38,298 nucleotides of DNA, from contig CALVON010000044.1 of assembly GCA_944350315.1 (NCBI GenBank), forward strand, positions 1 to 38,298, written 5' to 3'. This document shows positions 33,280 through 38,298 of the stretch, piece by piece. Source of the DNA: an uncultured Bacilli bacterium (GTDB lineage Bacteria; Bacillota_I; Bacilli_A; RF39; UBA660). Numbering within the stretch: the first letter of the stretch is position 1; every line of letters begins with the position of its first letter. A model generated the notes under the pieces. That model was not told the DNA's origin and did no database searches. It was given only the letters and a program-made list of their open reading frames with translations. The position numbers and the translations under genes are program-made.

Positions 33280-35421
33280 ATGGATATAATTTTAAAATTT
33301 GAAGATAATAATATACAATATTATGTAGTTAAAGAAAATGATGAAATTAAATATTGCTTTATAGAAAATGGAGAAAAAAAATACAATTTGAATGAAGAAC
33401 AAGAGAAACTTGTAAATACGGTTATTAGTAAGATATTACCATCAAATGATAAAATAAAAACAATGGAATATACATTAAATGGAAAAAAATACGATGTATA
33501 TATTGACAAAAAGAATTATTTTCACACTTTTTTTCCAATGCCAAGTAATGAAGAGTTAATAAAACTAAATTTTTTATTTAATAATATGGAAGAACATATT
33601 GCAAATGAGGGGCAACAAACATATTATAACGATCATTTGTCTCCATATGAACCTGAAGAGACAGATTTTATTAAGCGAATTGTTAAAATTGGCCAAAAAA
33701 GTGTTAAGGTATTATTAGCAGGAGGAATAATAGGTATTTCATATTTGCTTCTTTTTGTTAATAGTTATAAATTTATTAGTAATAATATAGAAGAACCTGC
33801 TGAAGAACTACAATATCAACAAGAGATTGTTTATACTCAAAGTTTATCAGATGAGGAATATTTAAAAGAAATAGAAAAAGCTATAAATAGTAATACTAAT
33901 CTTAGCGATGAGGAGAAAAAAGTATATTTAGCCAATCCGAGCATGTATCTTGATACAAAAGAAAATACGTCCATTGCACATTTGAAAGAAATATTAACGA
34001 CTGTTGATTTTCAGTATTTACCTTTATCAGAAAAAAATTATTATTATCCTTCTTCTAATATTATTGTTTTTTCAGCAGAAGATTTTTCTTCCGTTCCAAC
34101 CAAAATAATTAATCACGAAGTATCGCATTCTATTACAAAGTATTTAGAAAATCGTACGGAAGTATTGTGTGAAACAGTAAATACAATTTATAGTATGGAG
34201 TATTTAGATAGTCTAAGTCAAGAGTTTGTTAATGATAGCATGGATTATCCATATAATTGTGTAAAGGCATTAATTGAAATATTGGGGTATGATTGCTTTA
34301 AACAATATCATAGTATTAATGATGATAATTTAATTATTAGTGAATTATGTTCAATAATTTCAAATAAAGATAAAGCGTATACCTTGATTGATAATTTAAA
34401 TAATTATAGGGATATTGAATTTTATTCATTAAGTGATCCAGAACTTGATGAAAATTCTAAAAAGGAATTAATAACAAATTTGGAAAAAATAAGAACTAGA
34501 GTATATGCTTTAATTGATGAATATTGTTATGCTAAAAATGGTACTCATGTGGATGATAATCCAATTATTTTATATTATTTAGATCAAGATCAATTTTATA
34601 AAAAATTGGTAATTGATAATTTGCCAGAGGGTTATGAACTATTTGAAATAAATGAGGTTTCGAGCGATAATCAAATTGCATACTTTAACTCTAAATTAAA
34701 AAACGAGAATATGAAAATTATCAGTCATGTGGTAGCAACTGTGAGTTGTATAAATAAAGATACAGGAGAAAAGATGTATTTTGTCAAAGAAATGGAATTT
34801 ATAACAATAAAAGAATATAGTGTTTTATGTGATGATATTCATATAATTGAAGATTTATTCGATTATGAACATGGAAAAGAACAGTGGATGCCAGATTTTT
34901 ATAGACCTGAATATTTAAGAGCCCTAATTGAAATAATTGGAACTTCCCCAGTAAAAGAAGCATATGAGAACAAGTCGTTTGAGCCAATTTTACAATCTTT
35001 AATTAATCTTAATGGAAGTGAAAAAGATGCTAAAGAACTTGTCAAATTATTGAATATGAAAGCATTAGATGAATCTAGTACGGCAAAAATATATGATTAT
35101 ATGAAAGAATACTATTGTGATAAATATAATGCTAATTTAGAAGATGATTTGATGATGCTATTGTATTTAAATAAACCTCTCTTTGAAAAAGAAATATTGT
35201 CTATGTATAATCTCTCTGATACGTATATAGGGTGTGATACATCTACTTTATCTACAAAAAAATATTTTGACAAAGAGGGTCAAAATAACAAAATTACTAT
35301 TGAGTTATTTGGAAGAAGTAATGTTGATCAAGAGGAGATTTATCCAGAGAATGAATTTGGTATTCTAACTATTGATGATAGTAATAGATATTTAAATAAT
35401 GGAATTTTGCATATAAAATAA
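33280..35421 (+). CDS. Membrane protein with putative HExxH metallopeptidase motif and internal duplication
   Basis: 713 residues. Residues 1-140 seem cytosolic and charged; one membrane helix lies at about 145-163 (AGGIIGISYLLLFV), leaving a large extracellular part. H279-E-V-S-H283 sits after a helix-like IINHEVSHSITKYL and is followed by RTEVLCETVNTIYSMEYL, whose E294 or E298 could be the third zinc ligand, so a gluzincin-like protease is plausible. Around residue 330 (NCVKALIEILGYDCFKQY) and 550 (EYLRALIEIIGTSPVKEAY) two related modules appear; only the first has the HExxH. No family name can be given with confidence. Possibly surface-exposed peptidase or a pseudo-enzyme. Confidence 0.65.
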   Translation: MDIILKFEDNNIQYYVVKENDEIKYCFIENGEKKYNLNEEQEKLVNTVISKILPSNDKIKTMEYTLNGKKYDVYIDKKNYFHTFFPMPSNEELIKLNFLFNNMEEHIANEGQQTYYNDHLSPYEPEETDFIKRIVKIGQKSVKVLLAGGIIGISYLLLFVNSYKFISNNIEEPAEELQYQQEIVYTQSLSDEEYLKEIEKAINSNTNLSDEEKKVYLANPSMYLDTKENTSIAHLKEILTTVDFQYLPLSEKNYYYPSSNIIVFSAEDFSSVPTKIINHEVSHSITKYLENRTEVLCETVNTIYSMEYLDSLSQEFVNDSMDYPYNCVKALIEILGYDCFKQYHSINDDNLIISELCSIISNKDKAYTLIDNLNNYRDIEFYSLSDPELDENSKKELITNLEKIRTRVYALIDEYCYAKNGTHVDDNPIILYYLDQDQFYKKLVIDNLPEGYELFEINEVSSDNQIAYFNSKLKNENMKIISHVVATVSCINKDTGEKMYFVKEMEFITIKEYSVLCDDIHIIEDLFDYEHGKEQWMPDFYRPEYLRALIEIIGTSPVKEAYENKSFEPILQSLINLNGSEKDAKELVKLLNMKALDESSTAKIYDYMKEYYCDKYNANLEDDLMMLLYLNKPLFEKEILSMYNLSDTYIGCDTSTLSTKKYFDKEGQNNKITIELFGRSNVDQEEIYPENEFGILTIDDSNRYLNNGILHIK

Positions 35422-35427
35422 AAACAC

Positions 35428-35455
35428 TTGCTATTTCTAATAATTATGATAAAAT
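35428..35455 (+). promoter_or_regulatory. Possible promoter P1 upstream of the AMP-ligase gene
   Basis: TTGCTA at 35428-35433, 16-bp spacer, TAAAAT at 35450-35455. The direct repeats at 35464-35496 would lie just past its start site. Confidence 0.45.
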
Positions 35456-35463
35456 AGTATCAA

Positions 35464-35496
35464 GTTTAATTAGGGATTATAATCGTTTAATTAGGG
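35464..35496 (+). promoter_or_regulatory. Pair of direct repeats, LytTR-type operator candidate
   Basis: GTTTAATTAGGG occurs at 35464-35475 and again at 35485-35496, identical 12-mers with a 21-bp period, so both face the same side of the helix. 21-bp-period direct repeats with GTT cores are the known target of LytTR response regulators (AgrA, ComE, PlnC). Confidence 0.6.
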
Positions 35497-35500
35497 TTTA

Positions 35501-35532
35501 TTTACACATGAATTATCTAAAACAATTATAAT
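35501..35532 (+). promoter_or_regulatory. Possible promoter P2 with long spacer, just after the repeats
   Basis: TTTACA at 35501-35506, 20-bp spacer, TATAAT at 35527-35532. The spacer is too long for strong basal activity, as in activator-dependent promoters. The start codon of the ligase gene follows after 24 bp with GAGGTGA between. Confidence 0.5.
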
Positions 35533-35556
35533 ACTTTGACTGTTATGAGGTGAATT

Positions 35557-37454: not shown

Positions 37455-38298
37455 ATGATAGGATTAACTTTTTCTATATCATGTTTATTATTTATTGGTA
37501 TTTTACTTGTATTTTATCTTTCTAAAAAAAGATTAAAAACTGTAGATAATTCTATTTTTTTACATATGATTGTATTAAATATTGTTGGTATTTTTATAGA
37601 TATAAGTGGCTTTATCTTTTTTAAAAAACTTGGAATAGATAATTTAATCAATATAATTATTGCAAAAGTATATTCTGTATATTATGTTTCTTATGTAACA
37701 TTGCTACTAATATATATAATAAATGTATCTACAAATAAATTAAATAAGTATTTAAAAATAATTATGCCAATTTTTATTATATACATTTTATTAGTGGCAA
37801 TTTTACCTATTGAAATTTATTTTGAAAATAATATTGGTTATACAACAGGCCCATGTATTAATTTAGGATACTTTATTGGTTATACTGAAGTTATTTTTAT
37901 GATGTTTTTACTAATAAAAAATATTAAAAAAATAGGATTGAAAAGATATATACCGTTAATAGCATTTGCTATACTTACAATCGTGTGTGCCATAATACAA
38001 AAGTTATATCCTGAAGTAACTTTATTATTATTAACAAATTCATTAGTAACATTTTTAATGTATTTTACAATAGAAAATCCAGATATGAAGATGTTGAAAG
38101 AGATGCATGATGCAAAAGAAATATCTGATAATGCAAATGAGGAAAAGACTTTATTTTTATATAATATGACGCAAGAAATTAGAAATACTACTAAAAATAT
38201 TGATACACATGCAGATACTATTTTAGATAGTGATTCACTAGATATTGATAAAGATAGTGCTAGAAATATTAAAGGTGAAACATCTAAATTTAGAACAA
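37455..38298 (+). CDS. Membrane sensor histidine kinase-like protein, degenerate His box (3' end outside the window)
   Basis: 281 codons visible, open to the right edge; ATG 37455 with GGTGTGA at 37441-37447. About seven hydrophobic segments fill residues 1-210, without a recognisable extracellular sensor domain. A helical linker follows and then EEKTLFLYNMTQEIRNTTKNI, matching the HisKA consensus (FLxNMSHEIRTPL) except that the phospho-accepting His is Gln (Q240, codon CAA at 38172). The ATPase domain would lie past the edge. 20 bp downstream of the ligase gene, so the two are probably co-transcribed. It may act as a pseudokinase or a signal receptor; with the C-terminus missing the class is provisional. 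Confidence 0.6.
   Translation, partial: MIGLTFSISCLLFIGILLVFYLSKKRLKTVDNSIFLHMIVLNIVGIFIDISGFIFFKKLGIDNLINIIIAKVYSVYYVSYVTLLLIYIINVSTNKLNKYLKIIMPIFIIYILLVAILPIEIYFENNIGYTTGPCINLGYFIGYTEVIFMMFLLIKNIKKIGLKRYIPLIAFAILTIVCAIIQKLYPEVTLLLLTNSLVTFLMYFTIENPDMKMLKEMHDAKEISDNANEEKTLFLYNMTQEIRNTTKNIDTHADTILDSDSLDIDKDSARNIKGETSKFRT

Follow-up and report, generated by a model that had tools for sequence, protein, structure and literature searches.

Direct repeats downstream of a shared promoter form a candidate operator of two AMP-ligase/hybrid-kinase operons in an uncultured Bacilli bacterium

In the genome of an uncultured Bacilli bacterium, two identical 12-base direct repeats (GTTTAATTAGGG) lie between a gene of 713 amino acids (positions 33280 to 35421), for which no Pfam match was found, and the gene of an AMP-binding ligase that is followed by a hybrid kinase gene. 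The arrangement raises the question of which promoter the repeats serve and what type of regulator could bind them. The window, i.e., the whole stretch of 38,298 nucleotides that was analyzed, is the entire contig C44 of a 46-contig assembly. The original prediction was that a LytTR-type regulator uses the repeats to switch on a promoter with a long spacer (P2) located after them; as a fallback, it named an upstream promoter (P1), in which case the repeats would sit at the start site and suit a repressor. Direct reading of the window confirmed the repeats, with a start-to-start distance of 21 bases, and the P2 sequence was present as described (Table 1). The match between the copies stretches to 17 nt with one mismatch (94% identity). 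A scan of the 1.18-Mb genome for pairs of the 12-mer with a 21-bp period returned only the pair at 35464 and 35485, and the reversed control pattern gave no matches. With up to one mismatch, the single 12-mer was no commoner than its reversed control (9 versus 10 genome matches). For a 38-kb window, a second-order Markov model predicts 0.07 exact 12-mer repeats with at least four G/C and periods of 12 to 60, and 0.007 at a period of 20 to 22. The repeat pair alone is unlikely, yet not extraordinary across the whole genome; it becomes convincing because of a conserved second copy on contig C18.

Table 1. Features of the repeat-containing leader and the adjoining genes (window positions)
Feature	Position	Strand	Remarks
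P1 promoter, TTGCTA (35428-35433)-16 bp-TAAAAT (35450-35455)	35428..35455	+	extended -10 TG at 35447-35448; predicted start ~35462
Promoter and repeat block common to second ligase/kinase leader	35433..35500	+	C18 counterpart at L099, about 292-356
Repeat copy 1, GTTTAATTAGGG	35464..35475	+	GTTTAATT kept on C18
Repeat copy 2, GTTTAATTAGGG	35485..35496	+	TTTAATTA.GG kept on C18, there 20 bp after copy 1
Third, weaker copy, GTTTATTTA	35496..35504	+	8/9 to GTTTAATTA; 11 bp past copy 2
P2, long-spacer promoter-like TTTACA (35501-35506)-20 bp-TATAAT (35527-35532)	35501..35532	+	no C18 counterpart
Ribosome-binding site of ligase gene, GAGGTG	35548..35553	+	direct sequence reading
AMP-binding ligase (acyl-CoA synthetase/luciferase superfamily), 625 aa	35557..37434	+	Pfam PF00501, PF13193; PDB matches: luciferases, CoA ligases
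7TM hybrid kinase, N-terminal 281 aa up to contig end	37455..38298	+	H-box His to Gln

The C18 copy was found at C18:299-356 by a DNA search of the leader, as the second match within the same genome. It constitutes the leader of a second AMP-ligase gene, which is followed by another 7TM hybrid kinase gene. The alignment of the two leaders reached a local score of 71, compared to maxima of 40 for 2,000 dinucleotide shuffles and 31 for 130 other upstream regions of the same genome, drawn from about 150 kb of genome stretches. Similarity was confined to a single block of 83% identity, with unrelated flanks on both sides. C18 keeps the -35 element (TTGYTA), the extended -10 element (AATTATGATAAAATA), the bases transcribed first (TATCAAGTTTAATT), and TTTAATTANGGTTTA. 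Divergence affects a large part of the spacer, the end of repeat 1, and the remaining leader, and the differences sit between the elements. As the two ligases are just 25% identical as proteins, a neutral leader should not have stayed so alike. The pattern TTTAATT-N10-18-TTTAATTANGG, a loose composite derived from the two sites themselves, matched the genome exactly twice, at these two operons, and its reversed control gave no match. Judged from the two leaders, this conservation pattern is that expected of a working promoter with a putative downstream operator.

P1 was the top-scoring promoter in both leaders and displayed identical geometry on C18 (TTGTTA-16-TAAAAT). Its sequence agrees with that of sigma-A extended -10 promoters, which combine a -35 element, a spacer of 16 to 18 bp, and TGN before TANNNT. 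Compared to promoters of this type in front of the ribosomal gene rpsT (S20, named from protein sequence) in two related Bacilli genomes, 28 of 30 bases were identical; the rpsT promoters lack downstream repeats, whereas P1 has them. P1-like sequences were also seen in the tuf and secE leaders, and the extended -10 sequence TATGATAAAAT also precedes another gene of the bacterium's own genome, on C12. Since P1 is kept on C18 and nearly matches the rpsT promoters, whereas P2 is not kept, P1 is probably the true promoter and P2 probably not the main one. The C18 copy and the rpsT likeness of P1 thus support what had been proposed as the fallback. Relative to the P1 start, as predicted from the -10 position, the repeats would span roughly +2 to +42.

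With modest confidence, we favor the reading of the repeats as the operator of P1, a strong sigma-A extended -10 promoter of ordinary type that would drive the operon of ligase and hybrid kinase. A protein that recognizes head-to-tail repeats with offsets of about one and two helical turns would occupy the region from +2 to +42 and block or slow RNA polymerase, and both ligase/kinase operons would be switched together by the same binder. Several observations speak against an operator. There are just two examples in the genome, and the repeats are missing before the ligase orthologues of relatives; copy 2 starts 21 bases after copy 1 in the window but 20 bases after it on C18; and the kinase parts of the operons are near-identical, so that the promoter, too, could have been spread by recent recombination. 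The element reads as a real promoter/operator that is kept in a paralogous operon and is ordinary in kind.

The spacing of the array bears on the type of binder. The third, weaker copy of the window has a counterpart on C18, where GTTTAATG likewise lies 11 bp past copy 2. Copy 1 is separated from copy 2 by a degenerate unit (4/9). The array is thus spaced by 21 + 11 bp in the window and by 20 + 11 bp on C18, in agreement with the spacing of OmpR/PhoB-type sites (about 11 bp or multiples). The consensus of ArcA (GTTAATTA), a regulator of this family, is similar to the repeats, a likeness that serves as a lead only. ArcA recognizes direct repeats spaced by 11 and 22 bp, and many of its sites comprise at least three elements (PMC3798270). 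Like the array described here, tandem operators of the family (ArcA box arrays and PHO boxes) consist of AT-rich repeats in head-to-tail order, offset by one and two helical turns and often at least three in number; in contrast to them, the array has a degenerate second unit and would be located at +2 to +42. Three OmpR-type (Trans_reg_C) response regulators are encoded in the genome, on C19, C33, and C41. Because the third repeat gives the 21 + 11 and 20 + 11 spacing, as for ArcA, an OmpR-type binder is weakly favored: the spacing suits OmpR/PhoB-type sites better than LytTR sites, and the analogy weakly suggests an OmpR/PhoB-type regulator as the likeliest candidate binder among the response regulators of the genome. 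Up to the contig end on C44 and at the C18 locus, no neighboring gene of either operon was recognized as coding for a DNA-binding regulator. No TGTCGAA-like sequence (Spo0A box) was seen by eye, though Spo0A is encoded on C19.

How does the LytTR reading compare? AgrA half-sites follow the consensus WMMGTTNRK. Each half-site of the window fits this form at 7 of 9 positions, including the GTT that sites of AgrA, ComE, and HdrR/BrsR have in common with it; the original prediction itself called the match partial. The second half-site on C18 fits at only 5 of 9 positions and has lost the GTT. Across 153 kb of the genome, 88 pairs fit as well as 7/9, i.e., one per 1.7 kb. LytTR sites consist of 9-bp repeats separated by 11 to 13 bp and, as a rule, directly precede the -35 element (PMC6193735). 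Two 9-bp direct repeats at such a distance are present in both leaders (period of 21 bp, i.e., 9 bp + 12 bp, in the window and 20 bp on C18). They lie upstream of a -35 element for P2 alone, relative to which they would sit at about -75 to -43, and not for the conserved P1. The 20-bp spacer of P2 is of the long type found in agr P3 (PMC4227749). The placement downstream of P1 does not by itself exclude LytTR binding, because a site downstream of the promoter allows AgrA to repress bsaA (PMC4227749). A LytTR protein does exist in the genome, as the original prediction required, but its gene, the only one of its kind, encodes an AgrA-like regulator on C13, unlinked to the ligase/kinase operon. 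It stands beside a GHKL AgrC-like kinase gene in a separate AgrA/AgrC-like locus, and no matching repeat was found before this C13 operon. Likewise, no LytTR gene was evident among the listed open reading frames beyond the ligase and kinase genes in two relatives (G029 and G024). The C13 locus (L097, 11276-14052) resembles an agr quorum-sensing locus also in that an AgrB-like gene and an apparent gene for a short AgrD-like peptide lie on the strand opposite to the LytTR regulator and GHKL kinase genes. With P2 lacking a C18 counterpart, GTT missing from the second C18 half-site, and the half-sites at noise level, LytTR control is not supported, and activation of the long-spacer P2 by an AgrA-like regulator bound to the repeats is very unlikely. 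In a genome this rich in A and T, a partial match to the published LytTR half-site carries little information.

The distribution of the element in relatives, most of which were uncultured Bacilli in the protein search, gave a divided answer to the conservation check. The repeats are kept before the paralogue in the same genome but were absent before 12 ligase orthologues in other genera of the family, whose leaders were read. The composite was absent from the other 59 genomes searched with 3 mismatches allowed, and its loose form was absent from 384 of 386 family genomes; the one further match, in G031, lies in an AT-rich stretch and is probably due to chance. Six genus-mates had neither a close orthologue nor the composite, several of those assemblies being incomplete. 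Of the hundreds of weak, AT-rich matches that the DNA search returned across the 386 genomes, only the promoter-type ones were used, besides the C18 match. The other ligase relatives, from 62 loci of the protein search, are more distant (mostly 28 to 36% identical, at most 46% over a fragment) and were left out. Because the repeats are absent before the 12 orthologues, the element looks like a lineage-specific operator of two operons.

Two further explanations were considered. The shared leader could act as RNA: at the 5' end of the transcript, the repeats would pair into a stem or serve as a site for a protein or small RNA, and in this way control stability or translation. The predicted 5' leader does contain the repeats, conservation is among the highest at the first transcribed bases, and in the window copy 1 can pair with copy 2 (z = -2.3); however, this pairing is lost on C18 (z = +0.9), neither full leader folds better than its shuffles, and the leader has no Rfam match. 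The loss of the hairpin and the shuffle-like folding argue, without proof, for action on DNA, and we consider an RNA function unlikely. A riboswitch or other known RNA was rejected for want of an Rfam match; a CsrA-type AGGGA site, which is present in copy 1 only and is lost on C18, was rejected as well. Alternatively, the repeats could have no function if recombination carried the promoter from one operon to the other and slippage duplication produced the 21-bp repeat. The absence of the repeats from other genomes would fit, and the kinase cores of three operons are near-identical in DNA (218 to 221 of 226 nt), which makes exchange between operons likely. Against this reading, the leader block is 83% identical and not near 97%; moreover, the differences avoid the -35 element, the -10 element, and the repeat cores, and both flanks are unrelated. 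We regard the absence of any function as unlikely too; the promoter may have been moved by such exchange and then kept. The operator reading remains the one that we prefer, and the repeats are probably a shared on/off switch of two operons rather than a LytTR-type quorum-sensing site, because the same promoter-plus-repeat block precedes one other similar operon.

The near-identical kinase segments (38072-38298 in the window; contigs C1, C18, C24, and C46) end C44, C1, and others, which indicates that the right edge of the window is an assembly break in a repeat. C18 starts with the end of such a kinase gene, so that ligase/kinase units may be arranged in tandem. On C24, an apparent T-box leader (L147, about 290-500; recognized by eye) precedes a threonyl-tRNA synthetase-like gene directly after the receiver end of a kinase. 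Full-length relatives of the kinase carry HisKA, HATPase_c, and receiver domains; G029 and G024 both have the ligase followed by a full kinase with the receiver at its end. A kinase match adjoined the ligase in 11 of the 12 orthologous loci, upstream in one of them. The paired 7TM hybrid kinases (37455-38298; L099, 2327-3838) have a degenerate core, with Gln in place of the H-box His in each of the three copies; the C18 copy also displays an N-box Asn-to-Ser exchange and a shortened ATP lid, and its receiver Asp seems kept. Among the relatives, G024 has the canonical form, and G029 also carries the Gln. A more elaborate and quite improbable scheme would combine these parts into an undescribed circuit, in which the AMP-ligase would make or modify a signal, the paired 7-helix hybrid kinase, with catalytic residues lost and the receiver kept, would sense it, and a dedicated regulator on the array would shut off both operons together.

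An AMP-ligase gene or a PlsC-type acyltransferase gene beside a 7TM hybrid kinase gene recurs across the genera of the family (L095, L096, L100-L108, and L135). For this pairing, which is found throughout a family of uncultured gut-type Bacilli and has no assigned function, the repeats downstream of P1 provide a concrete candidate operator of the ligase/hybrid-kinase operon.
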